A stretch of DNA of 64,000 nucleotides from Marinifilum sp. D737 (GTDB lineage Bacteria; Bacteroidota; Bacteroidia; Bacteroidales; Marinifilaceae): NCBI RefSeq assembly GCF_026672275.1, contig NZ_JANQCD010000006.1:1-64000 (forward strand). The letters are read 5' to 3'. The notes beneath the pieces were generated by a model. That model made no database searches. It was not told where the DNA came from and saw only the letters and a list, made by a program, of their open reading frames with translations. The position numbers and the translations under genes were made by a program. Positions 21,049 through 64,000 of this stretch are shown here, piece by piece; position 1 is the first letter of the stretch, and every line of letters begins with the position of its first letter.

Positions 21049-21131
21049 AAATATATAAAAATAACATAATATGAATTATAAGACTTTTAAATATCTGGAA
21101 ATATGTCTGTTGTGAAGCTGAGTTTTAACTA

Positions 21132-37460: not shown

Positions 37461-38513
37461 CTACCCCTCATTCACTACCTTATCGCTATTGCTTACGCCA
37501 GCATCCTCGAAACTAGCCATTTGATTCAGGAAGTTAACTGCTGATTCGATAATAGGATAAGCTACTGCAGCACCGGTTCCTTCGCCTAATCGCATACCCA
37601 AATCTAGAATTGCATTGGCATTTAAATGTGCTAGCATATGCTTGTGCCCATTTTCGTTTGATTTATGCGTGAAAATACAATATTCCAATACTTCAGGATT
37701 CATTTTAGATGCAGCCAAAAGTGCTGATGTAATAATAAATCCATCTACCATGATGATCATTTTTAGTTCGGCAGCCTTTAACATGGCACCTGCAATCATT
37801 ACAATTTCAAATCCACCAAAGTGAGCGAATATATTTTCAATAGATGAGTCTCCTTTATAGTTTTCAACGGCTGAATTCAAAATTTCATATTTTCTTTTCA
37901 AGCCTTCATCGTCCCATCCAGTTCCTCGTCCAACACACTCCTTTAAATCTACATCAGCCAATAAATGTAATAAAACAGCTGCAGAAGAGGTGTTTGCAAT
38001 TCCCATTTCACCAAAACCTATGATATTGGTTCCGCCTTTGTGAGCTTGTTCTACCAAATCAGCTCCCCTTTTAATGGCAAGCTGAAACTGTTCTGAAGTC
38101 ATGGCTGCACCATTAAGGTATGATTTGGTTCCATGGGCAATCTTGGCATCAATTACATTCCACTCTTTGTCGAAATCGTAGTTTACACCTGCATCAACAA
38201 TTTTGATATCAATACCATTCTGACGACCAAATACATTAATGGCAGCGCCTCCAGCCATAAAGTTGGCAACCATTTGCCAGGTTACTTCCTGTGGATAAGG
38301 ACTAACGCCATCTAATGCAATGCCGTGATCTCCAGCAAAAACCATTATTGTTGGTTGTTTTAATTCAGGAGTTAAGGTGTTTTGAATACAACCTATTTTA
38401 ACCGCCAATTGTTCCAACATTCCTAATGAACCAATGGGTTTGGTTTTAAAATCAATTTTGTGTTGAAGTTGTTCTATCAACTCTTTGTTTGGAGTTTTTA
38501 TATCGAAATTCAT
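37461..38513 (-). CDS. cobT: CobT paralogue 1: nicotinate-nucleotide-base phosphoribosyltransferase
   Basis: A 350-residue CobT-family enzyme that transfers phosphoribose from nicotinate mononucleotide to the lower-ligand base (typically 5,6-dimethylbenzimidazole). It has KPIGSLGMLE, VFAGDHGIALDGVS, GFGEMGIANTSS with Glu169, and MRLGEGTGAA with catalytic Glu311. All expected catalytic residues are kept, including the Met after Glu169 as in Salmonella CobT. It follows its paralogue by 23 nt. Confidence 0.93.
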   Translation of the reverse strand: MNFDIKTPNKELIEQLQHKIDFKTKPIGSLGMLEQLAVKIGCIQNTLTPELKQPTIMVFAGDHGIALDGVSPYPQEVTWQMVANFMAGGAAINVFGRQNGIDIKIVDAGVNYDFDKEWNVIDAKIAHGTKSYLNGAAMTSEQFQLAIKRGADLVEQAHKGGTNIIGFGEMGIANTSSAAVLLHLLADVDLKECVGRGTGWDDEGLKRKYEILNSAVENYKGDSSIENIFAHFGGFEIVMIAGAMLKAAELKMIIMVDGFIITSALLAASKMNPEVLEYCIFTHKSNENGHKHMLAHLNANAILDLGMRLGEGTGAAVAYPIIESAVNFLNQMASFEDAGVSNSDKVVNEG

Positions 38514-38536: not shown

Positions 38537-39583
38537 TTATTTTTCTTCTTTTGCTTCGCTAACGCCAGCATCCTGAAAGGAAGCCATCTCGTTCATAAAT
38601 TGAGCTGCACTCTTTATTAAAGGAAAGCAAACCATTGCTCCTGTTGCTTCGCCCAAACGCATGCCAATGTCAAGAATTGGTTCACCACCCATGATATTCA
38701 GCATTTTAATGTGAGCTTGTTCATTCGATTTGTGTGCAAATAAGCAATAATCCTTAATCTTAGGATTGATTTTGAATGCTGCCAGTAATGCTGATGTAAT
38801 GATAAAACCATCAATTAATAGTGTCATTTTCAGTTCGGCGGCTTTTAACATGGCCCCAACAATCATCACAATTTCAAATCCTCCAAAGTGAGTAAGTACA
38901 TCAATTGGATCATTAAATTTATTGTATTTTGAAAGGCCTTCGTTTAAAAGATCGAATTTACTTTTTACACCATCTTTATCTAATCCAGTACCTCTGCCAA
39001 CACACTCCTCCAAAGAAATATCTCCTAAAATACTAAGTATTAGTGAAGCTGATGAAGTATTTCCAATTCCTTTTTCACCGAAAATAATGAAATTACAACC
39101 ATTTTGGTGAATTTCTTCAATCACTTCGGCACCGCGTTTAATTCCTTCCAAGCATTGCTCTTTGGTCATTGCAGCTTCAAAACGGTAGTTTTTAGTACCG
39201 TAGGCTAACTTTCTGTTAATTATAGGAAGGCTTGGATCAAAATCATGATCAACACCCGCATCAACTACATTAAATTTGATGCCATGTTGTTTGGCAAATA
39301 CAGTTGATGCTGCACCACCTTCCATATAATTATATAGCATTTGGTAGCTAACAGATTTTGGATAAAAACTAACTCCATCATCAGCAATACCATGATCTCC
39401 TGCAAATACAACCACATTAGGATTGGTAATCTTTGGATTTAGGCTATTTTGAATTTTCCCCAATTGGAAAGCAATTTTTTCCAACATTCCTAACGAACCA
39501 ATGGGCTTGGTTTTCGTATCAATCTTCTCCTGTAATTCTTTATTTAAATTGTCTGATAAAGAATCAATTTTAAATTCTATCAT
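38537..39583 (-). CDS. cobT: CobT paralogue 2
   Basis: A 348-residue second CobT-family protein, similar to paralogue 1 over its whole length (KPIGSLGMLEKIA, VFAGDHGIADDGVS, MRLGEATGAM with Glu312). In the base-pocket motif it reads GEKGIGNTSS: Lys171 follows Glu170, where the neighbour has Met. Tandem CobT homologues form the ArsAB heterodimer that activates phenolic bases in Sporomusa and Veillonella, so these two may be partners, or each may handle a different base. It starts 3 nt after the lipoprotein amidotransferase gene. Confidence 0.9.
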   Translation of the reverse strand: MIEFKIDSLSDNLNKELQEKIDTKTKPIGSLGMLEKIAFQLGKIQNSLNPKITNPNVVVFAGDHGIADDGVSFYPKSVSYQMLYNYMEGGAASTVFAKQHGIKFNVVDAGVDHDFDPSLPIINRKLAYGTKNYRFEAAMTKEQCLEGIKRGAEVIEEIHQNGCNFIIFGEKGIGNTSSASLILSILGDISLEECVGRGTGLDKDGVKSKFDLLNEGLSKYNKFNDPIDVLTHFGGFEIVMIVGAMLKAAELKMTLLIDGFIITSALLAAFKINPKIKDYCLFAHKSNEQAHIKMLNIMGGEPILDIGMRLGEATGAMVCFPLIKSAAQFMNEMASFQDAGVSEAKEEK

Positions 39584-42303: not shown

Positions 42304-43310
42304 TTTTGTAATGCATCAATTAGCAACTGATTTTTTTCTTCATTTAATGTTGCCACGCGAATATAAGAAGAATTTAGTCCACGGAAATTTTTAGCATCGC
42401 GAATCAGGATACCAAATTCAGAAATTAGGTAGTTTTTTAACTCTGTTGAGTCACCTTTTTCTAGTTCGATTAAAAAATAGGAAGTTTTTGTAGGGTGAAT
42501 TTTAAGGCCTGAAATTTTGGCCAATTTTTTAGTGAATTTTTCTGTGCTTGATTTATAATGTATTACAGGAGGCAAAACATCCGCTTTGTGCTGAATCAGG
42601 TATTTTCCAGCCTCAATTGCTAGTGAATTTACCGTCCATGGAGCCTTGTAGAATTCAATTTTCTGCACCAATGCCTTGTTTGCAATCAAATATCCCAATC
42701 TCAGGCCGGGAATTGCGAAGTTTTTAGTGAGAGATTTTACGATGATAAGATTTTGATGTATTTTGATCAATTCTATTGAAGATGAAATTGTATCGGTAAA
42801 ATCTATATAGGCTTCATCAATTACAAAAACTGAATTTGGATGATTCTGTAATATAAGATCCAAGTCTTTTTGCAATAAAATATCACCAGTTGGATTATTA
42901 GGATTACAGATCCAAATAAGGTCCGTATCGAAGCAGGAAGAAGAGGACAAGTCTTTCCAGTTCATAAAATGAAGTTTGTGATTATTGATTTTACAAGCAT
43001 CTTCGTATTCCGAAAATGTAGGAACAACAATGGTAGAGCTCGTATTACCATAGCATTGGGCAATAAGATAAAAAGCTTCAGTAGCACCGTTTACAGCCAT
43101 CAACATGTTGGTTTCAACATCAAGATCTTTCGCCAAAACATGAATAAAACTCTCTGCTGAAGCTTCAGGATAGGAGTCTATGGCATTCCAATTTTTTATC
43201 AGATGCTTTTTTAAAGCTTCGGAATATCCACCGTACCAGACGTTGGTGCTAAAATTGGCTTTAATGTCCTGTTTATATTTGTATCCATCATCTCCGTGTC
43301 CTTGTAACAT
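42279..43310 (-). CDS. cobD: Threonine-phosphate decarboxylase-like PLP enzyme
   Basis: A 343-residue class I/II aminotransferase-fold protein beginning MLQGHGDDGYKYKQDIKANFS. WICNPNNPTGD and VIDEAYIDFTD bind cofactor, and Lys in VKSLTKNFAIPGLRLGYLI forms the Schiff base. In this operon it should decarboxylate L-threonine O-3-phosphate to aminopropanol phosphate for CbiB. The family also includes histidinol-phosphate aminotransferase; the HGDD start and context favour CobD. ATG 43310 is preferred to a TTG at 43373. No cobalamin riboswitch fits in the 149 nt upstream. Confidence 0.87.
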   Translation of the reverse strand: MLQGHGDDGYKYKQDIKANFSTNVWYGGYSEALKKHLIKNWNAIDSYPEASAESFIHVLAKDLDVETNMLMAVNGATEAFYLIAQCYGNTSSTIVVPTFSEYEDACKINNHKLHFMNWKDLSSSSCFDTDLIWICNPNNPTGDILLQKDLDLILQNHPNSVFVIDEAYIDFTDTISSSIELIKIHQNLIIVKSLTKNFAIPGLRLGYLIANKALVQKIEFYKAPWTVNSLAIEAGKYLIQHKADVLPPVIHYKSSTEKFTKKLAKISGLKIHPTKTSYFLIELEKGDSTELKNYLISEFGILIRDAKNFRGLNSSYIRVATLNEEKNQLLIDALQKWSKLNTL

Positions 43311-43373
43311 GTTGTTATATAGTGTGTAAAGGTTATAGTGTATAAAGATATTACTTTTGGTAATTTCTTTCAA

Positions 43374-43415
43374 AAAAGAATGAGTTTACAGATGTAATTA
43401 CAAATGTAAACTCAT
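43374..43415 (-). terminator. pyrD terminator containing TTTACA/TGTAAA motifs
   Basis: ATGAGTTTACA (43380-43390) pairs with TGTAAACTCAT (43405-43415), followed on the minus strand by a T-rich tract. The stem also contains two TTACAnATGTAA-like units, matching the motif array upstream of the XRE gene, so it may be an operator as well as a terminator. Confidence 0.65.
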
Positions 43416-43459
43416 TATATATCAATTAAAGAATTATTTCTTTAATAAGTAAGGTTTAA

Positions 43460-44374
43460 TTACTGAACTTGTAAAGCGCCAATTAAATCATTGATATCTT
43501 GAATGTTGTGGCGTTTCATATAGTCTTCTATGCCCACAACTACCTTTTCAGTAATCTGTGGATCGATAAAATTCGCTGTTCCAATTTGAATTGCGGTAGC
43601 ACCTGCCAAAATAAACTCAATGGCATCTTTGGCGTTCATTATGCCTCCTAATCCAACTATTGGAATGTTAACGGCATTAAATACTTGCCATACCATTCTA
43701 AGAGCAACTGGCTTTACTGCAGGACCTGATAATCCTCCAGTAACGGTTGATAATAAAGGCTTTCTGGTTTCTGCATCAATAGCCATGCCCAATAGGGTGT
43801 TGATTAATGATACTGAGTCAGCTCCTTCAGCTTCAACAGCTTTCGCTATTTCAGTAATATCCGTAACATTCGGCGATAGTTTTACCATTAAGTGTTTTTT
43901 ATACACCTCTCGAACTGCTTTTACCACCGAAGCAGCAGATGCACAGCTGGTTCCGAATGCCATACCACCTTCCTTCACATTAGGACAAGAGATATTCAAC
44001 TCAATGGCTGGAATGTGCTCCAACTCGTTAATCATAGCAGCTGTTTCTACATAATCTTCAATTACTGATCCTGAAACATTAACTAAGATGTTGGTATCGT
44101 AGTGCTTAATTCGCGGATAAATTTCATTGCAGAAGTTTTCAACTCCTTTATTTTGTAATCCTACTGCATTTAGCATTCCTGAAGGCGTTTCTGCCATTCT
44201 TGGATAAGGATTTCCTTCTCTATGGTGTCTGGTGGTACCTTTTACTAAAATACCGCCTAAATTGCTTAAATCGATAAAATCTTCGAACTCTTCACCGAAC
44301 CCGAAGGTTCCAGAAGCGGTCATTACTGGGTTCTTTAAGCTTAGATCTTTAAGTTTTACTCCTAAATTTACCAT
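43460..44374 (-). CDS. pyrD: Dihydroorotate dehydrogenase B, catalytic subunit
   Basis: A 304-residue class 1B FMN enzyme oxidising dihydroorotate to orotate. [16 protein letters not shown] at the start; [13 protein letters not shown] with the catalytic Cys typical of class 1; [40 protein letters not shown] for FMN phosphate. ATG 44374 overlaps the pyrK stop by 7 nt, so the subunits are coupled; the longer frame to 44419 would lie inside pyrK. PyrK passes electrons to NAD. Confidence 0.95.
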
Positions 44375-45132
44375 TTCAGATCGTTTATATTGAATACCGG
44401 TCCTTCGGTACAAGTACATTTATTACCTTCTGTTGTTTCAGTTACGCAGCATAAACAAGCTCCAAATCCACATGCCATAGTATTTTCAAGCGAAACTTCG
44501 CAAGGAATGTTATTTTGTGCAGAATATGCCGCAACTGCCTTCATCATTGGCTCCGGACCACATGTAAATACGTAATCAAACTTTTCTTTCTCCAATACAG
44601 AATGTTGGGTTGGGTATCCTTTCTCACCAAAAGAACCATCTTCTGTAGTAACCAGAATATTACCGTATTCTTTATAAGCATCAAGCTCTACGGCATCTTT
44701 TTCTGATCTAACACCAAGAAGTGTAGTTACCTTATTACCTGCTTCTTTAAGATGTTTTGCAAGATATAGCAAGGGAGCCACACCGCAACCACCACCAACA
44801 AGTAATGTATTGGCATTATTTGGAATGGAATATTGATTACCCAATGGATAAACAATGTTTAATGTATCACCTTCTTTTAGTTCACCCAATTTTTTGGTTC
44901 CATCACCAATTTTTTTGATATACAAGCTAATTGTATTGCGCTCATAATCTACAAAATGGATCGATAATGGTCTTCTAAGGAAGGTTGTGTTGGAATCTTT
45001 TACCAAAACGTTTACAAATTGTCCTGGACGTATTTCCGGAAGTGGCTCTAAGGCCTTTACATCCAGCACAAAATGCTCATCGTTCAGCTCTTTTCTTTGT
45101 AGTACCTCAAAGTCTTGTACTAATTTTTTCAT
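44368..45132 (-). CDS. pyrK: Dihydroorotate dehydrogenase electron-transfer subunit
   Basis: A 254-residue ferredoxin-reductase-like subunit. FAD domain (1-100; [12 protein letters not shown]), NAD domain ([19 protein letters not shown]) and a C-terminal [2Fe-2S] site whose four cysteines lie in [12 protein letters not shown] and NKCTC. It forms a heterotetramer with PyrD. ATG 45132 is chosen; the open frame to 45240 would run into the XRE gene. Confidence 0.94.
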
Positions 45133-45193
45133 GGTGCCTAGCAATATTATATCTGTTAAGAATAAATCCAGGCAAAGATAATTCAAAAAATGC

Positions 45194-45631
45194 TTAAGAT
45201 GGGTTGTATTCCCTAAAAGTTTTATCAGTATAAAACACAACTACCTTTTCTATTTGTTTACCAGGAACGAACACGTTCATTTCTGAGAAGGATTCAGGCT
45301 GATTTACAGGCTTTGTAGGTGTTTCCTTTTTTAATTTAGGAGGTTGAGGAGTAATATTAGGTGTATCTTCTTCCTTTTCAAATTGAATCATCTCATTCTC
45401 GAAAAGTTTAGAGGTTTCTTGTGATGTGTACATTTCACCTTCTCCAAAAATAATCCAATCAATGTTGACATGAGGGAAGGATCGTCTTATTTTTTGCACA
45501 AAATCGAGGCTCGGCTTGTTTCTGCCTGATAATATATGAGATATACTGGAGCGCTGCACGCCAATTGTATCGGCAAATTTTGAAGATGTTAAGCCTTCAC
45601 TGTTTATTAATTGAACGATTCTATCTTTCAT
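45194..45631 (-). CDS. XRE-family transcriptional regulator
   Basis: A 145-residue regulator with an HTH domain (residues 1-68; GLTSSKFADTIGVQRSSISHILSGRNKPSLDF), a proline-rich linker (about 90-115) and a short tail, KQIEKVVVFYTDKTFREYNPS, that looks like a conserved interaction motif. It lies 61 nt before pyrK in the same orientation and could be co-transcribed with pyrKD. A strong promoter and about 1 kb of motif-rich DNA precede it, so autoregulation is plausible. ATG 45631 is chosen because the TTG at 45700 is the -33 element. Confidence 0.85.
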   Translation of the reverse strand: MKDRIVQLINSEGLTSSKFADTIGVQRSSISHILSGRNKPSLDFVQKIRRSFPHVNIDWIIFGEGEMYTSQETSKLFENEMIQFEKEEDTPNITPQPPKLKKETPTKPVNQPESFSEMNVFVPGKQIEKVVVFYTDKTFREYNPS

Positions 45632-45670
45632 AGGTTGATATTTTACAGATGTTAACTGTGTCTGTCGATA

Positions 45671-45700
45671 CAAAGGTAAAATTAAATTTACAAAAAGCAA
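45671..45700 (-). promoter_or_regulatory. Promoter of the XRE regulator
   Basis: On the minus strand TTG (45700-45698), exactly 19 nt, then TACCTTTG (45678-45671). TTTACA (45687-45692) lies in the spacer, and another TTTACA (45642-45647) lies in the leader next to an ACAG-N7-CTGT dyad. These are good candidate operators for the regulator itself. Confidence 0.72.
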
Positions 45701-46635
45701 ATAGAAAATTCAAATTAGGGTTACTTTTGTAATTTATAATTGTAAACCGACAATTTAACCTGTAACAATTCTCAATTTACAATTGTATTTTACATTTATA
45801 AATGATTTAAGCTCCTAATTTCTGGACATATAGACTTAAAAAGGATTCATAGAATAAACTGAATCCATTAGACCATCACTCAAACAAATGGAGTGTATAA
45901 TACTCTAAACAGAATCAACATGAGTCTAATTGCTAGTTTTTCAGCTCATTAGACTTGTTTACAAGTGTATTTATTAGGAATATAACAAGAATCAACACTA
46001 GTTCGGCCTGTTTGATTGATATCCTATTCTATTTTTAAATCAATTGAAATCCATAAAACATTGAATTACAGCATTATAAACATGTGGAGTTTACAATTTA
46101 CATTCTAATTGATATAGTTTTATAGTATTGTAAACTATATGTCTAAAGTAATAATTTAATATAGCTCTATAAGTATCTGGTTACTAGAATTAAACACTCT
46201 TAAATGTCAACTACTATTAGATTTGTAACCTATATTTAAACAATATAATACATTTAAAATGTGTATACAAAAAGCAATTGAGAATAAACAATAGTATGGA
46301 TACGAAACCACACAAATAGGTTACAATTATAAATTACATATGTAAATAAATGAATTTTGAAAATTGGACTTGACTCCAATTATAGTTTACAACATTAATT
46401 TAATGATGTAAACAAATAATGTGAGAAAAAAATGCTTTTGTTTACTCGAAATGGATTGACAATTGTATTTTTTCAATCATATGGTCTGATTGTTTACAAA
46501 AATTACAAGCTAAGGAGCTTAAAAATGGTAAGAATTGTTGACAATGTTCAGTAATTGAAGCAGATGCAAGTATAAATAGCAAAATAATTATTGCTAAAAT
46601 CTAGAAGAATAATGGTATTTGCAAGACAAGAAAGC
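45701..46635. repeat. Gene-free region with array of TTTACA/TGTAAA motifs
   Basis: 935 bp with no credible gene. I count eleven TTTACA or TGTAAA hexamers: 45741, 45776, 45789, 45958, 46090, 46097, 46129, 46341, 46386, 46407 and 46493, plus related TTACAA/TGTAAC sites at 46224, 46321 and 46503. Several sit in palindromes: TTTACAATTGTA (45776), TTACATATGTAA (46334-46345), a 29-nt dyad with GTTTACA/TGTAAAC ends (46385-46413) and TTGTTTACAA (46490-46499). This is probably a regulatory or DNA-binding-protein array. Confidence 0.6.
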
Positions 46636-46989
46636 CTATTTCGACTTTCTTATCTTTACATATCCCATAAAAAGAATATAGATTGAGAATCCTACAATTA
46701 AGATTCTTAAAATAAGGTTTTCTGTTACACTCCCATTGGATGTTAAAATATCTCTTGATAATGCAGGAATCATGAATATTAAAAGTCCAAAAACCAAAAC
46801 CAGCATTGCAATTGTAAATATCCGTCGGAGTTTGATCTGCTTTGGAGACAACTCCTTCTTTTTAGCCTGTTTATTCTTTTTATGATCCTTTGATTTGCTT
46901 TGTGGGGTTTTCAATGCTTTTTTTAATCGACTACCTACAAGAAAGGCAAATACGCATAGTCCTATTACGATATATAATTCTTTACTCAT
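46636..46989 (-). CDS. Small membrane protein next to a metallopeptidase
   Basis: A 117-residue protein with an N-terminal helix (3-20), a very lysine-rich cytosolic segment (25-50), and two more helices (54-75, 88-110). No family is recognised. Its ATG directly abuts the stop of the upstream YgjP-like gene, so the two are one operon. It may anchor or assist that protein. Confidence 0.68.
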   Translation of the reverse strand: MSKELYIVIGLCVFAFLVGSRLKKALKTPQSKSKDHKKNKQAKKKELSPKQIKLRRIFTIAMLVLVFGLLIFMIPALSRDILTSNGSVTENLILRILIVGFSIYILFMGYVKIRKSK

Positions 46990-47712
46990 TTATATGATGT
47001 TTATAGAGTGTTTCTTTATTTTATTTTTCTTTTCTGCAAGATTGGGGCAATGACTTGCTAAAAGCTCCCAGAATTGGCTGGAATGGTTTTTAACGACTGT
47101 ATGACACAATTCGTGAAGGATAACCATATCCGATAAATCTTCTGGCAAACGCATTAAATGCAAACTCAAATTGATTTTATTATCATGAGAGCAAGAGCCC
47201 CATCGGCTTTTGGTATTTTTGATTTGTACGGAATGGTACTTAAATCCATGTTGTTTCGCAAGAAATTCTATCCTCTTAGGCAAATAGTATTTTGCTTCGC
47301 GCCGAAGAGTTTCAATTATGGATTTTCTGATAAACTCTTGTAAGCCTGTATTAATAATTTCCATTCCTTCGGGATAAATTACCTCAAGTATGCCATTATT
47401 AAGTTTCGAAGAATAAGACTTGGTAGTTACCTGAGTAATTCTCAGCTCGTGGTATTTGGTTTTAAATTTGGTATTCTGATCAAAAATGGTTTGCTGACTT
47501 TCCCTGGCATCTTTCTTCTGTTTAGCTTGAATGATCCAGGCCTTGTTTTCTTCAGCAAACTTTATGGCTTCCTCGACGGAAATGCAATTGGGAACGTTTA
47601 TCCAAATTCCTTTTGTTGGAGCCATGCGAATTGATAACCGCCTGAAACGCTTATCGGTTCTTAGTGCAATTTCTCCAATGTCTTTAATATAGATGATTTT
47701 TTCTGTAGGCAT
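46990..47712 (-). CDS. YgjP-like zinc metallopeptidase (DUF45)
   Basis: A 240-residue protein of the YgjP/DUF45 family. The N-terminal strand region includes KRFRRLSIRMAPTKGIWINVP. The zinc site is His200-Glu-Leu-Cys-His204 (VILHELCHTVV) with His210 as third ligand, preceded by SRWGSCSHDNKINLSLHLMRLP. Full length. Cytosolic; substrate of the family is poorly defined. Its start codon lies immediately after a terminator hairpin. Confidence 0.9.
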   Translation of the reverse strand: MPTEKIIYIKDIGEIALRTDKRFRRLSIRMAPTKGIWINVPNCISVEEAIKFAEENKAWIIQAKQKKDARESQQTIFDQNTKFKTKYHELRITQVTTKSYSSKLNNGILEVIYPEGMEIINTGLQEFIRKSIIETLRREAKYYLPKRIEFLAKQHGFKYHSVQIKNTKSRWGSCSHDNKINLSLHLMRLPEDLSDMVILHELCHTVVKNHSSQFWELLASHCPNLAEKKNKIKKHSINII

Positions 47713-47739
47713 AAAAAAAGCTTTGCAAAATGCAAAGCT
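47713..47739 (-). terminator. Terminator abutting the YgjP-like start codon
   Basis: AGCTTTGCA and TGCAAAGCT pair around an AAA loop; on the minus strand T7 runs straight into the ATG at 47712. It ends transcription of the upstream small gene and also occupies the whole leader of the next gene. Confidence 0.72.
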
Positions 47740-47740
47740 A
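47733..47740 (-). promoter_or_regulatory. Possible -7 box inside the terminator stem
   Basis: TAGCTTTG on the minus strand matches TAnnTTTG and forms the 5' arm of the hairpin. It would start YgjP-like mRNA about 14 nt before the ATG. No strong -33 element is seen. Confidence 0.4.
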
Positions 47741-47762
47741 TTAAAATATCTAATTTTGGAAA

Positions 47763-48050
47763 TTACTTTTCCTTAATTAAGGTGCTTAATCTGGTAAATG
47801 ATTCATCTACATTCTTAATCAAGTCGTTAAAAATTGACTTGTAATATGCCTTTACCATTTTAGGATTATCTTTTCCATCAGGATGGTTAACTCTTGCAAT
47901 TAAATTATTTCTTGCAATAATAGTATCCTTGATGATATCCATTACCTGCTCCCTATTTTCCGGGTGCAAATAATTATAGTTATAACAATCTGAAATAACC
48001 TCAAAACAAAGATAATCAATGTCTTTTTTTAAGCGTCTTCTACTAGCCAT
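47763..48050 (-). CDS. Conserved small helical protein of unknown function
   Basis: A 95-residue protein beginning MASRRRLKKDIDYLCFEVISDCYNYNYL, mostly helical and charged, without signal peptide or membrane helix. I do not know its function. ATG 48050 is preferred: the longer frame to 48155 crosses a TACCTTTG promoter box. It ends at a strong terminator. Confidence 0.7.
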   Translation of the reverse strand: MASRRRLKKDIDYLCFEVISDCYNYNYLHPENREQVMDIIKDTIIARNNLIARVNHPDGKDNPKMVKAYYKSIFNDLIKNVDESFTRLSTLIKEK

Positions 48051-48099
48051 CTTAATAGTTTTTGATGAATAAATCGGGATTCTTCCCTCTGATCGGGAA

Positions 48100-48107
48100 C
48101 AAAGGTA
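48100..48107 (-). promoter_or_regulatory. -7 box of the small helical protein gene
   Basis: TACCTTTG on the minus strand, a full match to TAnnTTTG, gives a leader of about 45 nt. Confidence 0.5.
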
Positions 48108-48155
48108 ATAAACCCCGATTAATTTATCATTTAAAAATAGATAAAACTTGAGCAC

Positions 48156-48650
48156 TTAGGAGTAGTCAGCCAATTGTTCAGCTAAAATTTTTCGCCCCTG
48201 GAATATTCTACTTTTAATGGTGCCAATTGGCAAATTTGCATGTTCAGCAATTTCGCGGTATTTAAATCCCTCTAAAAACATTTTAAAAGGCGTGCGCAAG
48301 GATTCTTCCAATTTGTTCAGTTCCTTCATGATATCCTTATAGTTTTGTATAGAATAAGGATTGTCAAAACTTACATTTACCTTTCCTATATTGTTGTTTG
48401 TTTCATGAGCCATCCACTCACGTTGCTTTAACTTCTTTCTATATGCATTTATGAACAAGTTCTTCATAATTGTATAAAGCCAAGCTTTAAGATTGTTATG
48501 GCTAAATTTTGCTTTGTATATGAAAGCCTTCAAAACGGTTTCCTGGCATAAATCCAATGCATCTTCTCTATTGTTGGTTAATCGGTAAGCATAAATTCTA
48601 AGTTGCTCTTCTAAATTAACGATCGTATTATTAAATTCTATTGTTGTCAT
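48156..48650 (-). CDS. ECF-family sigma factor with a strong Shine-Dalgarno
   Basis: A 164-residue ECF sigma factor: region 2 with NNREDALDLCQETVLKAFIY and NLKAWLYTIMKNLFINAYRK, region 4 with GFKYREIAEHANLPIGTIKSRIFQGRKIL. ATG 48650 follows AGGAGGT at 48663-48657 with 6-nt spacing, rare in Bacteroidota, whose ribosomes hide the anti-Shine-Dalgarno. No anti-sigma gene is adjacent. It lies downstream of a CarH-like regulator, and a functional link is possible. Confidence 0.9.
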   Translation of the reverse strand: MTTIEFNNTIVNLEEQLRIYAYRLTNNREDALDLCQETVLKAFIYKAKFSHNNLKAWLYTIMKNLFINAYRKKLKQREWMAHETNNNIGKVNVSFDNPYSIQNYKDIMKELNKLEESLRTPFKMFLEGFKYREIAEHANLPIGTIKSRIFQGRKILAEQLADYS

Positions 48651-48656
48651 GATTGT

Positions 48657-48663
48657 ACCTCCT
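48657..48663 (-). promoter_or_regulatory. Strong Shine-Dalgarno before the ECF sigma gene
   Basis: AGGAGGT on the minus strand, six bases before the ATG at 48650. It decides the start against the longer frame reaching 48701. Confidence 0.7.
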
Positions 48664-48752
48664 ATTGTTTTGTCTAATAAAAATACAAAAAGATTAGACA
48701 AAAGTCAATAAATCCTTAAACAGAACTTTAATAACAGTTCCTGATTCTAAAT

Positions 48753-48788
48753 AAAAAAAGCCTACATTCTTTTAAATGAAAGGCTTTT
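48753..48788 (-). terminator. Terminator of the CarH-like gene
   Basis: AAAGCCT and AGGCTTT form the outer stem, CATT/AATG an inner one; on the minus strand T7 follows. Confidence 0.7.
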
Positions 48789-48835
48789 GGCAATTCTATA
48801 TTAGTCTTTCTAAATAAGACTAAAAAGTCTTTTAA

Positions 48836-49717
48836 TTACTTCAATTGAAGTAGCTTTTTAAATTTTTGTGGAGATGTAATCAATTTCATGGAATCAGGCA
48901 CTTCTACCCCTTCTTGCTTAAGCTGTAAGCCAGTGACCATTAGCTCTATATTTTTAAAGGATTTTTCCATACTTAACAAGTAGACATTAATATCCTCTGG
49001 ATTAATCGGCGAAATGAAAGAGCTGATAATATAATCAGGATTGTAATCATTTACTGCGCTTACCAAATCCTTAAATGGCAGATTTTGTCCAAGATAAAGC
49101 GTACTGAATCCATTTCTTCTTAGTATATAATTGTAGAATAGAATCCCGACTTCATGCAACTCACCTTCCTTTAAGTATATCAGCACTTTCGACGCACCTT
49201 CCACTGACTTTCCTGAAAGAGAATCGATCGATGCAAATAATTTTTGTCTAATCAAATTTGAAATAAAGTGTTCCTGAGCTGGATTGATTGAGCCAACTTG
49301 CCAAAGCACTCCTATCCTTTCGAAAAAAGGGAAAAGTACTTCTACAATGGTTGATTCCATTCCGCTTTCGAGTATGTATCTGGACAAAATAGACTCAAAC
49401 AATTCTTCATTAAAATTTACTGTTGCAAGCGTAAGTTTCTCTATGTGAAATCCAATACTTTTATTTGACCTTGACAACTCTAATATTTTAGCTTCAAGAT
49501 CAATGGTGCTTAATTTAGCAAGGTGAGAAATTTTAATTCCTGATGAATTAAGCATTGAAACATTAAGCAGTTTACGAAGGTCACTATCAGAATATGAGCG
49601 AATATTGGTCTTGCTCCTTTCAGGCTGAATGATACCATATCTTCTTTCCCATATTCGAATGGTGTGAGCTTTTACTCCTGTTATTTTTTCAAGATCTTTT
49701 ATGGAATATTTACTCAT
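48836..49717 (-). CDS. CarH/LitR-type MerR regulator with B12-binding domain
   Basis: A 293-residue protein: MerR HTH (1-70; AHTIRIWERRYGIIQPER), a four-helix B12-cap region with the W-x9-EH signature (Trp139, Glu149, His150), and a Rossmann B12 domain with E-x-H-x-x-G (His188 as lower axial ligand). These define adenosylcobalamin photoreceptors that hold DNA as dark tetramers and fall apart in light. The residue after Trp139 is Gln140; in Thermus CarH the matching position is the histidine that caps cobalt after photolysis, so light chemistry may differ. A corrinoid salvage cluster lies about 5 kb away. Confidence 0.88.
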   Translation of the reverse strand: MSKYSIKDLEKITGVKAHTIRIWERRYGIIQPERSKTNIRSYSDSDLRKLLNVSMLNSSGIKISHLAKLSTIDLEAKILELSRSNKSIGFHIEKLTLATVNFNEELFESILSRYILESGMESTIVEVLFPFFERIGVLWQVGSINPAQEHFISNLIRQKLFASIDSLSGKSVEGASKVLIYLKEGELHEVGILFYNYILRRNGFSTLYLGQNLPFKDLVSAVNDYNPDYIISSFISPINPEDINVYLLSMEKSFKNIELMVTGLQLKQEGVEVPDSMKLITSPQKFKKLLQLK

Positions 49718-49778
49718 ATTTTTCAGTTAGTGAGAAGAGTGAAAATCCACTCTCTTTAATAATTATTAAATCTAATCA

Positions 49779-49815
49779 AAAAAACTAAAACCTGCATAAA
49801 ATGGCAGGTTTTAGT
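49779..49815 (-). terminator. Fasciclin lipoprotein gene terminator
   Basis: ACTAAAACCTGC pairs perfectly with GCAGGTTTTAGT around an 8-nt loop, followed by T residues on the minus strand. Confidence 0.85.
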
Positions 49816-49829
49816 ATGTATTGTAGAGA

Positions 49830-51617
49830 TTATTCTGGCAATAAAACCTTATCGATTACATGAATTACTCCGTTAGTTCCCTGAATATCTGTTGCAGTTA
49901 CGTTAGTATCTCCGTTAATTGTTACGCCCGAACTTGTATCAATATCAAGCATACTTCCTTCGTTTAGAGTTGATACCATGCCAGTTGATACCTGATCTGA
50001 TCTTACATTACCAGAAACAACATGGTAAAGCAAAATTGGAGTTAAAGTTTCTGCACTTAAGTCGTCAATTCCATCAACTCCTAAGGCTTCAAAAAGTGCT
50101 TCAAAAGCTGCGTCTGTTGGAGCAAATATTGTAAATGGTCCATCTCCACTTAAAGTTTCAGCTAAATCAGCCTTTACGACTGCGGCTACCAAATGCTCGA
50201 AGTTGTCGTTAGCAATTGCAATATCAACTACATTAGGAGGTAATAAAACCTTATCAATTACATGAATAACACCATTGAATGCTTCAATATCTGCTGATGT
50301 TACCGTTGTTTCTTTGTTTAGCTTTACTCCATCGCTCGTGTCTAATCGTAACGTTACAGGATCCATATCCGGACTGTTGGTAGCTAGTGTTTCCACATAG
50401 CCCGGATTAATATCCGTTGACATAACCTTACTGCCTAAAACATGATAAAGTAGAACTTGAGTTAGTGTTTCGACGGATAAATCCTCAATTCCTGAAACAC
50501 CCAGATTGGTAAATAAATCCTGAAAAGCCTGATTGGTTGGTGCAAAAACTGTAAATGCACCTTCTCCATCCATTGTTTCTACAAGACTAGCTTTGTCAAG
50601 AGCTGCTACCAGGCTGGAAAAATCGCCATTTGCTGCTGCAATATCTGCTATCGACTGTGCTTCCTCTTCTGCTCCAGGAATTAACACCTTATCAATTACA
50701 TGTATTACCCCATTGGTTCCTTGTACGTCAGTAGCAATAACATTGCTTGATCCGTTGATAATAACTCCACTACCATCAGCATCAATTTCAAGATCAGCTT
50801 CGGCATTTAGAGTTGAAACTGTACCAGTGCTAACATCGGCAGCTCGAACATTTCCTGAAACAACGTGATAGGTAAGAATTGGGGTAAGATCTTCTGCTGA
50901 CAAATCTTCAATTCCATTTATGCCCAGATCAGCAAATAAAGCCTCGAAAGCGGCATCAGTTGGAGCAAAAATCGTAAATGGCCCATCTCCTCTAAGTGCA
51001 TCTACTAAATCAGCTTTAATTACTGCATCTACTAGATGTGAGAATGTAGCATTTGCGATAGCTATGTCAACAACATCAGGAGGAAGAAGAACCTCGTCAA
51101 TGATGTGAATCACGCCATTGGACGCCATAACATCGACGCTGGTAACATTGGCGCTATTATTTAATTTTACGCCCGAATCAAGACCAACGAGTAAATTGAT
51201 AGGATAATCACCAGGAGTAAATGTACTTAGTGTTTGCACATAACCATTAGATAAGTCTGTTGATTTTGCTTGAATACCCAATACATGATATAAAAGAATC
51301 GGAGCTAAAGCTTCAGCACTCAGTTCATCAATACCTGAAACTCCCAAATCCGTAAACAATTGCTCAAAAGCAGCATTTGTCGGTCCAAATACCGTAAAAG
51401 GTCCATTGGCATTTAAAGCTTCTACCAAGTCTGCCTTTGTAAGAGCGGCAGCTAAAATTGAGAAGTTATCATTACCTATTACAATGTCAACAATATTCTT
51501 GTCTGTTGGCATTGGATTTGGCATGTCATTGTCATCATCTTCGCATGAAACATTAACTATTGCTGCGATCATTAGGAGAAATAATCCTAAACTAAATTTG
51601 TAATTCCTGAAATTCAT
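49830..51617 (-). CDS. Four-domain fasciclin (FAS1) lipoprotein
   Basis: A 595-residue surface lipoprotein: lipobox VNVSC with Cys25, then an acidic EDDDND stretch that resembles the Bacteroidota surface-export signal. Four FAS1 domains follow, at about 41-180, 181-317, 320-460 and 461-595, each with GPFT(V/I)F(A/G)PTxAAF and ending GVIH(V/I)ID(K/E)VLLP. Domains 1 and 3 resemble each other, as do 2 and 4, which points to duplication of a two-domain unit. Probable adhesion or matrix function at the cell surface. Monocistronic. Confidence 0.92.
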   Translation of the reverse strand: MNFRNYKFSLGLFLLMIAAIVNVSCEDDDNDMPNPMPTDKNIVDIVIGNDNFSILAAALTKADLVEALNANGPFTVFGPTNAAFEQLFTDLGVSGIDELSAEALAPILLYHVLGIQAKSTDLSNGYVQTLSTFTPGDYPINLLVGLDSGVKLNNSANVTSVDVMASNGVIHIIDEVLLPPDVVDIAIANATFSHLVDAVIKADLVDALRGDGPFTIFAPTDAAFEALFADLGINGIEDLSAEDLTPILTYHVVSGNVRAADVSTGTVSTLNAEADLEIDADGSGVIINGSSNVIATDVQGTNGVIHVIDKVLIPGAEEEAQSIADIAAANGDFSSLVAALDKASLVETMDGEGAFTVFAPTNQAFQDLFTNLGVSGIEDLSVETLTQVLLYHVLGSKVMSTDINPGYVETLATNSPDMDPVTLRLDTSDGVKLNKETTVTSADIEAFNGVIHVIDKVLLPPNVVDIAIANDNFEHLVAAVVKADLAETLSGDGPFTIFAPTDAAFEALFEALGVDGIDDLSAETLTPILLYHVVSGNVRSDQVSTGMVSTLNEGSMLDIDTSSGVTINGDTNVTATDIQGTNGVIHVIDKVLLPE

Positions 51618-51739
51618 GTCATTTTTTTTTAATGGTTCAATCAGGAAACAAATTCAATTCATTTTTTGTTCATCAAAATCAGAAAATAATTATACAAAAA
51701 TATAAAAATAAATACAACGCCTTACTGTTTTTGGGCATT

Positions 51740-53044
51740 TTAAGATTTTACTTTTTCTGCAATTATTTGCGGAGGGTAAGTTAATTTTCCTTCCGTTTTA
51801 GCAACAATTGTGGAAACGGTGGCATCTCCTGTTACATTTACAACCGTTCTAAGCATGTCTAAAGGTCGATCTATACCAAGTATTAATGCCAGACCTTCAA
51901 TAGGAATACCAACTGATGTAAGAACGATAATAAGCATTACGATGCTACCACCTGGTACACCTGGGGTTCCAATAGAAGCCAATGTGGCTGTTACGACAAT
52001 TAAAAGCTGATCGTAGATATCCAATGTTACACCAAACACCTGAGCAATAAAAACCGCTGCAATAGCTTGATAACAACTAGTACCATCCATATTGATGGTG
52101 ACTCCAACTGGCAAAACAAAACTTGCAACTTCGTTTGAAACACCCATTTTGTTTTCAACACACTCCATGGTTACAGGAAGTGTTGCTGCACTTGAACTTG
52201 TAGAAAATGCTAATAATTGAGCTGGAGAGATTGATTTGTAGAAGTCAGTATACTTTATTGGAGTAAAAATTCGTAAGAATAATGGATATATTAAAAAGAT
52301 CATGATCAATAATCCCGCTATTACTGTTATTGCATACCATCCCAATGCAGTAAAAAGGTCTACATCTCCTGAAAAATCAACAATTAATCCGGCAATTAAT
52401 GCAAATACTCCATATGGTGCAAAAAGCATGATGATATCAATGATTTTTAGAATAATAGCATCTATTCCATCAAAGAATTCCTTTACTACTTTTACCTTTT
52501 TTTCTTCCAGAATCACCATTGCGATCCCAAATAAAATGGCAAAGAATATGATTTGCAGCATTTTGGTATTGTCTGTGGCTGCTTTGAAGAAATTGTCTGG
52601 TACCACGTCAACTAAAAATTGAAGTGGAGATTCTTCCTTGATATGATCGGCTTGATTCTTCTTAAGACTAATATCTGACCCAAACCTTTCTTGAAGTTCT
52701 ATTTTTTTGTGCTCTGGGAAGGTGTTTCCAGGTTCAAAATTATTTACCAGTAAAAGTCCAAAACTAACTGCTATAACTGTAGAAATCACATAAAGTGAAA
52801 TGGTTTTTATTCCTATGCGTGAGAGTTTTGAGATGTTTGAAAGACTTGAAATCCCCTTAACCAATGAAACAAATATTAGTGGGACAGCTATAAGTTTTAA
52901 AAGGTTTAAAAAGATTGCACCCCATGGTTTTATCCAATCTGCAGTGAATTTGGTTAAATCAAAATAAACAGCAAGCATTCCTCCAACAATACCTAAAGCC
53001 ATTCCTATTAATATTTTCACATAAAGGGGTAATCTTTTCCACAT
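51740..53044 (-). CDS. Dicarboxylate/amino acid:cation symporter (DAACS)
   Basis: A 434-residue transporter with the glutamate-transporter fold. The serine-rich re-entrant loop FSTSSSAATLPVTMEC and NMDGTSCYQA in helix 7 coordinate sodium or protons and substrate, and GTPGVPGGSIVM lies in the second hairpin. It probably imports dicarboxylates or acidic amino acids. An extended periplasmic loop at about 115-145 is present. Full length. Confidence 0.93.
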   Translation of the reverse strand: MWKRLPLYVKILIGMALGIVGGMLAVYFDLTKFTADWIKPWGAIFLNLLKLIAVPLIFVSLVKGISSLSNISKLSRIGIKTISLYVISTVIAVSFGLLLVNNFEPGNTFPEHKKIELQERFGSDISLKKNQADHIKEESPLQFLVDVVPDNFFKAATDNTKMLQIIFFAILFGIAMVILEEKKVKVVKEFFDGIDAIILKIIDIIMLFAPYGVFALIAGLIVDFSGDVDLFTALGWYAITVIAGLLIMIFLIYPLFLRIFTPIKYTDFYKSISPAQLLAFSTSSSAATLPVTMECVENKMGVSNEVASFVLPVGVTINMDGTSCYQAIAAVFIAQVFGVTLDIYDQLLIVVTATLASIGTPGVPGGSIVMLIIVLTSVGIPIEGLALILGIDRPLDMLRTVVNVTGDATVSTIVAKTEGKLTYPPQIIAEKVKS

Positions 53045-53087
53045 AAGCTGTAATTTTAATAAGCTTTAAAGGTAATTGTATGAAATA

Positions 53088-53126
53088 AAAAAACAAAGCC
53101 CGAAAACCAATTGGTTTTCGGGCTTT
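53088..53126 (-). terminator. slyD terminator
   Basis: A perfect 16-bp palindrome (arm AAAGCCCGAAAACCAA) at 53095-53126, followed on the minus strand by T7. Confidence 0.9.
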
Positions 53127-53146
53127 AAATATTTTTTGAATTGCTA

Positions 53147-53689
53147 TTAGCAACCACAACCGCTTCCACAGCCTCCGTCATTACAACTTCCGCTATCACA
53201 TCCACCTTGTGGTGCATAAACTGCTTGTTTTTCTTCGTCAGTAGCATCTCTTACCTCGATAACTTCACCTTTAAAATATAAGTCATCACCAGCTAATGGG
53301 TGATTGAAGTCCATTTTAACAGTTGCATCTGCTACTTCTAATACAATACCGTTCATTCTACGACCTGAACTATCCTGCATTGGAACCACATTTCCTTCTT
53401 TAATCATTTCTGCGTCAAACTCTCCGTTTACTTCAAAAATATTTTTAGGAAGGTCAATAACAGCCTGCTCAGAAGCTTCACCGTATGCTTCAGCAGTTTC
53501 TAATTTAAATTCGAATGATTCACCTACTTTTAATCCCATTAGGTTAGATTCGAATTTTTCAAGCATTTGACCAGCTCCACACAAGAATGTTAGTGGAGTT
53601 TCAGTAACTGCTTTTTCAATGATTTCACCAGCTGGATCAGTTTTTAATTCGTAAATAACTGATACCATTTTATCTTTTGCAATAGTCAT
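53147..53689 (-). CDS. slyD: SlyD-like FKBP peptidyl-prolyl isomerase
   Basis: A 180-residue FKBP protein with an inserted chaperone flap (about 75-125), PLTFLCGAGQMLEKFESNLMGLKVGE in the FKBP core, and a cysteine/glycine-rich tail (residues 164-180, GGCDSGSCNDGGCGSGCGC) with six cysteines. SlyD tails normally bind nickel through histidines and cysteines; this one is cysteine-only, so zinc, copper or nickel could bind. It folds proteins in the cytosol and may deliver metal. Confidence 0.92.
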   Translation of the reverse strand: MTIAKDKMVSVIYELKTDPAGEIIEKAVTETPLTFLCGAGQMLEKFESNLMGLKVGESFEFKLETAEAYGEASEQAVIDLPKNIFEVNGEFDAEMIKEGNVVPMQDSSGRRMNGIVLEVADATVKMDFNHPLAGDDLYFKGEVIEVRDATDEEKQAVYAPQGGCDSGSCNDGGCGSGCGC

Positions 53690-53813
53690 AATATCTTTTT
53701 TTTAGTATTTTATTCTTTAGACTTTCTTATAAATCCGATACAAAGAAAGTACATTTATTTCTTTATTCAAATAAAATCGGAGTTCTTGGTCTAATATTAA
53801 CGGATTTTAGTAT

Positions 53814-54299
53814 TTATTTGTAATTAGCTGGATTCAGGGCATCAGGACGCCAATTGTAAAGAAATGATTTAACCCGATTGAAATCATAACCTTTATCCTT
53901 TTCTAAATTCCCGGTGTTTTGAGTGTGGATTCTCTCTCCTTTAGCATTTAGAACCAGCATTACAGGAAAGCCAAAGCGTTGAGGATAACCAAGATCCATT
54001 AAAACGTCTTTGTTTTTATTTTCTTTGCTGTAATTTACCTCCAAGAATACATAATTATCATTCAAAAGCTTATTAATTTCTTCTTGGCTATGAAGATATC
54101 GGTGCATTTTAATGCACCATGGGCACCAATTACCCCCAACTTGAATTAAAACATGCTTCCCTTCTTTTTTTGCTTTAGCCACAGCCTCAATAAGATCCTT
54201 TTTTGCATCAGCATTTGGATTATAGATCCTTTGAGCTGATAAGCCATTCGTAATGAATAAGGCTAGACTTAAAGTCAAAAACAACTTAAATGTTTTCAT
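53814..54299 (-). CDS. Exported thioredoxin-fold protein
   Basis: A 161-residue protein with a signal peptide (MKTFKLFLTLSLALFITNGLSA) and a thioredoxin-like domain with WCPWC (Cys59, Cys62) and a cis-Pro region FGFPVML. The WCxWC style matches the thioredoxin_7 group. It probably reduces or isomerises disulfides in the periplasm. ATG 54299 is chosen since the signal peptide then begins normally; two more ATGs lie at 54323 and 54326. Confidence 0.86.
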   Translation of the reverse strand: MKTFKLFLTLSLALFITNGLSAQRIYNPNADAKKDLIEAVAKAKKEGKHVLIQVGGNWCPWCIKMHRYLHSQEEINKLLNDNYVFLEVNYSKENKNKDVLMDLGYPQRFGFPVMLVLNAKGERIHTQNTGNLEKDKGYDFNRVKSFLYNWRPDALNPANYK

Positions 54300-54543
54300 T
54301 TGTTCAGTATTTATATCATTCATCATGATTTAATTAATGTCCGAAATTAATGATTTATTTCAATGAGAGGAGTTTGAAATTGATTTTTAACAAGGAAATA
54401 ACAGCCTAACTTTATATCTTGTGTAATTATCGTCTAGATTGTTAGTGTTTTAAGGGGATATGTTATAAAAATACATTCAAACCCTATTCTTCTTACCTAA
54501 GAAATCATAGCTTTACGCAGGAAATTAAAAGAATTTAAATTGT

Positions 54544-55830
54544 ATGAGTACGCAAGGGAAAATAGACCTTAGTTTTGATAAAAACCACATTTGGCACCCT
54601 TACACCTCGATGAAAGATCCATTGCCAGTATATCCGGTGGTCTCAGCAGAGGGTGTAAAGTTAAAACTGGAAGATGGTCGTGAACTAATTGACGGAATGT
54701 CATCTTGGTGGTGCGCTGTTCATGGATACAATCATCCTGTGTTAAATGAAGCTGTTGAAAAGCAACTACAAAACATGTCTCATGTGATGTTCGGCGGTAT
54801 AACACACCAACCGGCAGTTGACCTTGCTAAGTTACTGGTAAAAATTACTCCTAAATCTTTAGAAAAAGTATTTTATTGCGACTCAGGTTCGGTTGCTGTT
54901 GAAGTTGCAATGAAAATGGCAATACAGTACAGATTTGCCACAAATAATCTTAAGAAGAATAAATTTCTTACAATACGCTCCGGTTATCATGGCGATACTT
55001 TTAATGCGATGTCAGTCTGTGATCCGGTTACCGGAATGCATGAAATTTTTACTGGAGTATTACCGATAAATTATTTTGTAGAAGCTCCCACTTGCAAATT
55101 TAATGAGGATTGGGATGAAGAAGCATTTGCTCCAATGGATAAAATGATTAGGGAGCATCATGGAGAATTAACAGCTGTTATCCTTGAGCCGATTGTTCAA
55201 GGTGCTGGTGGAATGAGATTCTACCATCCTGAATATTTAAAAAAATTGAGACTGATTTGTGATGAATTTGACATTTTATTGATATTGGATGAAATTGCAA
55301 CAGGATTTGGTAGAACTGGTAGGATGTTTGCCTGCGAATACGCAAATATAGAACCAGATATCATGACCGTCGGCAAGGCGATTACTGGTGGATATATGTC
55401 ATTTGCAGCAACTTTAACCAATTTAAAAGTAAGCGAAGGAATTTCTTCTGGCACACCAGGAAATTTTATGCATGGCCCTACTTTTATGGGAAATCCAATG
55501 GCTTGTGCTGTTGGGATAGCCAGTATTTCTCTGCTATTAAGCGATAATTGGCAAGCAAAAGTAAATAAGATAGAAAGTACTCTTGAACAGGAATTAAAGG
55601 CTGCAAGAAGCTTTAATAACGTTGCTGAAGTACGTATTTTAGGGGCAATTGGGGTTATTGAAATGAAAGAACCTGTTGATATGGCCAGTATGCAAAAGAA
55701 ATTTGTTGAAAATGGAATCTGGGTTCGTCCTTTTGGCAAGAATGTATACCTGATGCCTCCATTTGTTATTAGTGATGAAGATTTAATTTTCTTATGTAAA
55801 AAGCTTATTTCTATAGTTAAAGATTGTTAA
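54544..55830 (+). CDS. bioA: Adenosylmethionine-8-amino-7-oxononanoate aminotransferase
   Basis: A 428-residue PLP enzyme making 7,8-diaminononanoate in biotin synthesis. [14 protein letters not shown] and [16 protein letters not shown] are BioA hallmarks. [17 protein letters not shown] binds PLP, and the Schiff-base Lys is in [10 protein letters not shown]. It heads the operon bioA-F-G-C-D. No BirA operator could be recognised upstream. Confidence 0.96.
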
Positions 55831-55837
55831 TATTGTG

Positions 55838-58380: not shown

Positions 58381-58385
58381 ATTAC

Positions 58386-59063: not shown

Positions 59064-59460
59064 AAATTTCCAAAAACTAGAATGTGATAAATTTCACAAA
59101 AACAGTAAAAAATTTTAAGCGAAAATACATAAATATTCTGACCATTATCTAAGGCAGCAAATAAATAATCGATTCTGAGAGACTTTAAAACTCACATAAA
59201 GTTGATAAACTACCGGATATTCAGCTATTTGAGATAAAATTAAACAATACTCAATCAACCAAGATCTAGGAAAAGACCGGCTTTTTTATGCCATTTTTTG
59301 TAAAAAAGATATTTTTTAAATTTAAAACAGATAAAAAGATCCAATAATGCTTGTAACTTAAACGAAATTTCTATTTTTTTGTATACCCTTATTTAAAAAG
59401 ATTCCATATAGATAAAATCATAGGGAATTGAGGGAAGAATCAAAAAAATAGCAAAATTGT
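59064..59460. other. Gene-free stretch after the biotin operon
   Basis: 397 bp without a credible frame. A weak AAAAG/CTTTT stem with T6 near 59270-59287 may end the bio operon. No tRNA, riboswitch or clear promoter was recognised. Confidence 0.5.
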
Positions 59461-60105: not shown

Positions 60106-60190
60106 AATGTTATAAACTAATTAAATGGGTAAACAAATTGTTTGTAAAAATCAATTGAATTGACTCATTATAATTCTTAATTATTGAAGA

Positions 60191-62814: not shown

Positions 62815-62841
62815 AAAAAGACGCATTTTGCGTCTTTTTTT
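62813..62841. terminator. Shared terminator of mtaB and the stress-protein gene
   Basis: AAAAAGACGCA pairs perfectly with TGCGTCTTTTT around TTT, with T runs on both strands, between two convergent genes. Confidence 0.88.
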
Positions 62842-62860
62842 ATTAGTTCTAATCAATTAT

Positions 62861-63985: not shown

Positions 63986-64000
63986 AAGCCTGAGTTTAGT

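Follow-up and report, generated by a model that had tools for sequence, protein, structure and literature searches.

In Escherichia coli and Bacillus subtilis the genes for the fork trap proteins Tus and RTP adjoin the binding sites of their own products, TerB and Ter respectively, and in E. coli the chromosomal site cluster datA titrates the regulator DnaA. MatP of E. coli is a terminus-specific DNA-binding protein with repeated short sites and a link to division; its matS sites number 23 copies over 800 kb (PMC3330122). The ZapT-ZauP-ZapA system of Caulobacter includes a terminus-linked regulator-type protein that interacts with the division machinery through its C-terminal part (PMC7858052), ZapT being of the MerR type and binding over 1.3-2.2 Mb. 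The terminus-to-division links that we found described, MatP and ZapT, are from Proteobacteria. In the open-licence PMC literature searched, which included PMC3091885 (2011), we found no terminus-specific DNA-binding protein described for Bacteroidetes and no description of the XRE/array system reported here.

Here we describe a locus of Marinifilum sp. D737 in which the gene of an XRE-type regulator stands beside an array of palindromic sites; the window is the whole stretch of DNA that was analysed, 64,000 nucleotides in length. Like the Tus/TerB and RTP/Ter fork traps, the locus places the gene of a DNA-binding protein beside its probable sites at the probable terminus, but unlike Tus and RTP the XRE protein has an HTH_3 fold, its 13-16 symmetric sites lie in one array and there is no evidence of fork arrest. 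With MatP/matS it shares a terminus-specific DNA-binding protein, repeated short sites and a possible division link, whereas the XRE sites form one cluster of about 1 kb without the domain-wide spread of matS (as judged in the relative G015). ZapT is similar in being a terminus-linked regulator-type DNA-binding protein and differs from XRE, which has an HTH_3 domain, one dense locus and a putative operator at the division (dcw) cluster. The array could, like datA, titrate a regulator upon duplication, for which there are no functional data; unlike datA, which is near the origin and concerns initiation, it lies at the probable terminus and would concern division genes. Phage CI/434-type repressors, SinR and DdrO likewise combine an HTH domain with palindromic operators, but XRE is a conserved chromosomal gene, probably near ter, with a C-terminal beta-hairpin and a long operator array. 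Our preferred reading, to which we assign a probability of roughly 0.6, is that the array consists of XRE operators and that XRE acts as a terminus-linked regulator through which cell division depends on the state of the terminus.

The array upstream of the XRE gene

45197..45631, minus strand: XRE (HTH_3) gene, 145 aa (Pfam HTH_3 8.3e-9; AlphaFold2; alignments)
45632..46635, no strand: putative operator array, gene-free, with 13 palindromic sites scoring at least 9 and 16 scoring at least 7, between 45643 and 46505

The gene-free gap was taken as 45632-46635 (1004 bp), with the XRE start at 45631. A preliminary description had counted eleven TTTACA/TGTAAA hexamers in 45701-46635 (935 bp) and further copies at 45687 and 45642, and a recount gave exactly these numbers, i.e. 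13 hexamers in 45642-46508; the palindromic examples that it listed are also present (TTACATATGTAA at 46334, TTGTTTACAA at 45955 and 46490, TTTACAATTGTA at 45776). Its estimate of fewer than two expected hexamers was slightly low, although the excess itself stands: the comparison with shuffled sequence that it had proposed gave a mean of 2.25 and a maximum of 9 in 5000 dinucleotide-preserving shuffles of 45701-46635, none of which reached the observed 11. Equal density in other intergenic DNA, which it had named as a refutation, is not seen within the window, where the gap holds 13 hexamers per 1004 bp (about 13 per kb) vs 13 per 6845 bp (1.9 per kb) in the remaining gene-free DNA. The whole-genome count of the 8-mer TTGTAAAC was no higher than that of its reversed control; the motif is therefore common genome-wide and the clustering is the special part.

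Judged by the dyad counts, the better unit is the palindrome TTAC-N4-GTAA and not the hexamer, the hexamers being half-sites of the 12-bp TTACA-N2-TGTAA. An unbiased screen of all 4-mer dyads with gaps of 0-12 bp in 18 Marinifilaceae upstream regions, which are related and not independent, returned TTAC-N4-GTAA as the top dyad (33 vs 0.75 expected). The symmetric matrix derived from these 18 regions reads TTTACANNTGTAAA; site counts made with it in its own training regions are circular, which does not apply to the hexamer test or to the other loci. The individual sites of the window are as follows.

45643..45654, no strand: putative operator in the XRE leader, TTACAGATGTTA, kept in 5/5 other Marinifilum sequences
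45721..45745, no strand: putative operator pair 13 bp apart (45721, 45734), upstream of the XRE promoter, scores 14.2 and 14.9
45777..45801, no strand: putative operator pair 13 bp apart (45777, 45790), scores 14.3 and 13.7; 45777 kept in only 1/5
45959..45970, no strand: putative operator, score 12.1, kept in 5/5
46217..46228, no strand: putative operator, score 12.3, kept in 5/5
46321..46345, no strand: distal putative operator pair 13 bp apart (46321, 46334, the latter being TTACATATGTAA), scores 14.0 and 16.7
46387..46411, no strand: weaker putative operator pair 13 bp apart (46387, 46400), scores 9.1 and 9.9
46457..46468, no strand: most distal putative operator scoring at least 9, score 12.0
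43386..43409, no strand: second element, two tandem palindromes 12 bp apart (GAGTTTACAnnTGTAATTACAnnTGTAAACTC), between pyrD and cobD

Of the 12 named Marinifilum/Labilibaculum loci long enough to include it, 10 have the full tandem element and two (L044, L046) show one strong palindrome. The element is partly terminator-like in Marinifilum, where a T-run follows it, and not in Labilibaculum L043 and L045; an RNA hairpin was rejected for it, as the nn pairs lack the covariation that a hairpin needs. No known structured RNA was matched in 43200-47000 (0 Rfam matches at E<=1), and the array as an RNA element was rejected on that ground, within the scope of Rfam families. Elsewhere in the window genome there are 15 other exact palindromes, 10 in coding sequence and 5 intergenic. 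An exact TTACATATGTAA also lies between divergent genes of this genome, 130 and 322 bp from their starts (L248, contig C86 near 148460).

Conservation and spacing of the sites

Gap length and sites are conserved in the genus and in close family members, so that non-conservation in close relatives, the other refutation that had been proposed, does not hold. Of the 13 window sites, 12 are kept in at least three of the five other Marinifilum sequences and one in 1/5. Pairwise identity among these five sequences was 0.863 in the site cores, 0.650 in the central N2 and 0.619 outside the sites, and the difference between core and outside was reached in 0/10000 permutations; conserved cores with a drifting centre point to protein-binding sites.

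Sites were then scored across the order in the 700 bp upstream of xre (shorter at contig ends) of 45 non-training loci, made up of 27 and 18 from two homologue searches after exclusion of the window's own locus (L118) and of duplicates (L141, L015, L018). These hold 227 sites vs 15.6 expected from Markov simulations, with at least two in 45/45 and a range of 2-10 per locus, and their top two dyads were TACA-N2-TGTA (114 vs 1.95 expected) and TTAC-N4-GTAA (88 vs 1.45). The 25 other-family loci from the phylum search (L207-L231, with L232-L235 and matches without a locus left out) hold 120 sites vs 7.0 expected, at least two in 24/25 and none in the remaining one (range 0-8), with 61 TACA-N2-TGTA vs 1.1 expected and 70 TTAC-N4-GTAA vs 0.6.

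The adjacent spacings of up to 60 bp in relatives (n=193) include 46 of 23-24 bp and 61 of 33-36 bp, while in the window four operator pairs are 13 bp apart and the tandem element has a step of 12 bp. By inference, steps of about 11 bp would place dimers on one face of the helix, an arrangement that suits cooperative binding. Sites, conservation and phasing are computational observations; the XRE protein as binder is inferred and, in the absence of binding data, is most likely the protein that occupies the array. Palindromic sites are present at XRE's own promoter, which is sequence evidence alone. The palindrome is kept with the XRE gene across differing neighbourhoods, sites lie over the XRE promoter and leader, and spacings of about 24 and 35 bp recur; on these grounds we are strongly confident of cooperative binding by XRE at the array.

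The XRE protein and its gene neighbourhood

The HTH_3 match of the XRE protein scored 35.8 bits vs a curated cut-off of 23. The AlphaFold2 model gave pLDDT values of about 89-94 in the HTH blocks, 39-48 in the blocks of 71-120 and 89 in block 131-140, i.e. an N-terminal helix-turn-helix, a low-confidence linker and a C-terminal beta-hairpin (strands 130-133 and 139-142). The window protein carries the C-terminal motif K-x-I-x-x-V-V-V-F-Y-x-D-x-T-F-x-x-Y, which is shared across the order with variation in relatives. A family profile matched 234/246 genomes of the order at E<=0.001, an upper bound for orthologues since HTH-only paralogues can pass this threshold, and 29/198 genomes of a phylum sample at E<=1e-10, the window genome included. 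A structure search returned only generic HTH folds, with SinR, DdrO and 434 Cro among the best and none at E<=0.001; Pfam and NCBIfam scans gave HTH repressor-type families only, with no MatP, Tus or RTP family, and the Pfam scan found no MerR-type domain.

44368..45132, minus strand: pyrK-like dihydroorotate dehydrogenase electron transfer subunit (NCBIfam 202.5 bits, E 8.2e-60; the curated cut-off, 219, is not reached)
43460..44419, minus strand: pyrD, class 1B-like dihydroorotate dehydrogenase (NCBIfam PRK07259, 441 bits, cut-off 269)
46636..46989, minus strand: 117-aa protein without a clear family, bounding the gap on its far side; genus-mates L003-L005 have the same gene and gap

The genes around xre differ between groups, but the gene-free stretch and its sites remain beside it. 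Upstream lie YgjP and the 117-aa protein in Marinifilum and a Smr-type gene, queA or holA in other families (by reading, without HMM), and in L208 the neighbour is a divergent M14 peptidase gene. Downstream, the pyrK-like gene follows XRE on the same strand; pyrKD stands behind xre in Marinifilum and G213 (the latter by reading), and class 2 pyrD in G172 (by HMM) and in G249 and G194 (by reading), so that 4/4 other-family Bacteroidales examined have one or the other class of pyrD behind xre. It is as if class 1B pyrD (with pyrK) or class 2 (quinone) had been swapped in place.

Two further features of the window were recorded. Its cobalamin cluster has two adjacent CobT (DBI_PRT) genes on the minus strand (37461-38513 and 38537-39583), both of which exceed the family cut-off; where CobT genes occur in tandem, their products can pair as heterodimers, which activate unusual lower ligands. 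An ECF sigma factor (48156-48701), then a small protein of no family (47763-48155), and a nearby MerR/B12-binding regulator (48836-49717) are also encoded on the minus strand.

Position relative to the replication terminus

21059..21086, minus strand: dif-like site, candidate chromosomal dif, 24.6 kb downstream of the XRE start

GC skew in the window is +0.105 to the left of the dif-like site, -0.072 from there to 45000 and +0.029 from 46700 to 64000. Relative to xre, the 28-mer is found 24.2-24.8 kb downstream in the window, G001, G009, G011 and G012, 20.9 kb downstream in G015, 9.8 kb in G172 and 6.5 kb in G249, with one orientation throughout. G213 has it inverted, at a distance of 21.6 kb, and no clear dif-like site was seen near xre in G194. 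The proteobacterial dif consensus alone gave weak matches only; what makes the site convincing is the same motif at the same distance and orientation in relatives. A single best dif-like site was found in 10/14 complete genomes, and in 10/10 of these it lies 6.5-134 kb from xre (Fisher p 3e-10). Sites close to xre in G009, G015, G172, G213 and G249 had contributed to the search pattern; the five genomes that had not contributed (G130, G296, G362, G437, G465) gave p 6e-5. Both p values assume independent genomes, which these are not, and the test left out other single-contig genomes (such as G185, G233 and G256) for which the xre position was not listed. The remaining four genomes had tied candidates, those that we judge most dif-like being about 63, 93, 114 and 206 kb from xre in G194, G370, G385 and G401. 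The gene dnaA, taken for comparison, lies 645 kb from dif in G009 and 631 kb from it in G015.

The skew, which was sampled within the order only, flips at or next to the xre locus in five of the six complete genomes sampled. In G015 the positive skew becomes negative between about 5.09 and 5.14 Mb; there xre is at 5.109 Mb and the cumulative skew maximum falls at 5.155 Mb (third-position) or 5.088 Mb (raw); the flip brackets xre in G249, G194 and G213; and in G009 xre (3.352 Mb) falls within the sample at 3.34-3.36 Mb, the last with positive skew before the negative sample at 3.50 Mb. G172 fits only loosely: with xre at 2.349 Mb and a skew of +0.061 at 2.23 Mb, the sign changes between 2.46 (+0.007) and 2.88 Mb, 0.11-0.53 Mb past xre. 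The strands of the rRNA operons are consistent with a terminus located towards xre in G015, G009, G172, G249, G213, G130, G437, G362 and G401, whereas in G194, G296, G370, G385 and G465 all operons are on one strand and the flip could not be placed.

The condition that MatP/matS sets, namely protein gene and sites at the terminus, is met by XRE in five of six genomes by skew and in 10/10 with a unique dif-like site. Proximity to the terminus is a computational observation, and we hold a true terminus linkage of the xre locus to be probable, with a confidence that was lowered slightly because of G172 and of the partly circular dif pattern. The locus as oriC was rejected, as skew and rRNA place it opposite the origin, at or near a plus-to-minus flip. 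A dispersed matS-like system was rejected for G015, in which sites within 100 kb of ter, the locus excluded, showed no enrichment (0.42-0.84 of permuted matrices); exact-site counts in four genomes were near the reversed-pattern control (18 vs 15, 13 vs 17, 22 vs 15 and 9 vs 8).

A palindrome before mraZ

In the window genome an exact palindrome stands 13 bp before the mraZ ATG, with rsmH next; MraZ and RsmH were confirmed by HMM. The mraZ-rsmH pair is the usual start of the division (dcw) cluster. A pattern search that allowed no mismatches found the palindrome exactly 13 bp before the mraZ start in 12/57 genomes (G000-G004, G009, G011, G012, G015, G020, G468 and G470), all of the near clade and including all 10 whose xre is at least 62% identical; G475, a genus-mate of G020, had no match. 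Three other matches were unrelated, and the reversed control gave 3. Central bases and flanks vary among the 12 genomes, and outside G000 the identity of mraZ rests on the matched start M-x-T-F-I-G. The palindrome overlaps what we take, by the Bacteroidetes promoter consensus, to be the -7 region. The site is observed by computation; control of division genes by XRE in this clade is inferred from it, and we consider it slightly better than an even chance.

The preliminary description had left open whether the array serves cooperative binding by XRE, a nucleoid protein, or a partition or replication function. XRE binding and a role in the chromosome cycle, the latter by virtue of the proximity to the terminus, have gained support, from sequence alone and without binding or functional data; neither the terminus location nor the mraZ site was part of that description.

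Proposed function and alternatives

As we propose, an XRE dimer would recognise TTTACANNTGTAAA and bind cooperatively at helically phased sites. It would repress its own gene, as inferred from the sites over its promoter and leader, with an array that extends 0.8 kb past them, and would act on division genes through the single near-consensus operator before mraZ at the start of the dcw cluster. The sign of regulation and the way in which the terminus array matters are inferred: the array may titrate the repressor on duplication or form a nucleoprotein complex at ter. A specific form of titration, a sensor of replication completion for division, is conceivable but unlikely; here 13-16 operators in the last-replicated region would hold the XRE repressor, copying of the terminus would double these sites at once and lower the free repressor, and the dcw operator would empty, releasing the division genes only once the chromosome is finished.

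The terminus linkage may in part be inherited synteny, and XRE may simply repress itself and a few promoters, with no role in the chromosome cycle and a terminus position that reflects inherited gene order. The sites that cover the XRE promoter, the 2-10 or 0-8 sites in the upstream 700 bp of relatives, which are compatible with plain autoregulation, and the persistence of xre beside pyrD in the Bacteroidales examined all fit this; yet proximity to dif-like sites is kept where neighbours differ (pyrKD, class 2 pyrD, a divergent M14 peptidase gene), and conservation extends to the distal sites, as far as 0.8 kb away, so that it remains a serious possibility at less than even odds. Another candidate role is in pyrimidine metabolism, with XRE controlling the pyrD operon behind it; a hint of this is that pyrKD or class 2 pyrD comes straight after xre both in the window and in the four other-family Bacteroidales examined. 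We regard this as improbable: no pyrD lies downstream in L208 or L218, the two other-family loci translated (by reading; 2 of 25), the array is larger than a promoter needs and mraZ, which also has a site, is not a pyrimidine gene.

Two alternatives take the terminus position itself as the function. A bridged complex of XRE and array could mark or anchor ter, the beta-hairpin perhaps binding a divisome partner in the manner of MatP or ZapT, and the proximity to the terminus, the dense phased sites, and the low-confidence linker with its conserved C-terminal motif would suit such an organiser; it is doubtful in view of a single concentrated locus, without dispersed sites over the ter domain, and of the lack of an identified partner. 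Dense repressor arrays stall forks, and a protein-coated array whose gene adjoins its sites near the skew flip might stop forks and fix the terminus, like RTP or Tus. This is very improbable, as the sites are symmetric without polar arrangement, the window skew reverses at the dif-like site, which is 24 kb from the array, and the distance between xre and dif varies from 6 to 134 kb.

We therefore retain, at the strength given above, the reading of XRE as a terminus-linked regulator that acts on division through its operators. A conserved small terminus-linked protein, together with its operator motif and a target in the division cluster, offers a handle on the coordination of replication and division in Bacteroidetes.
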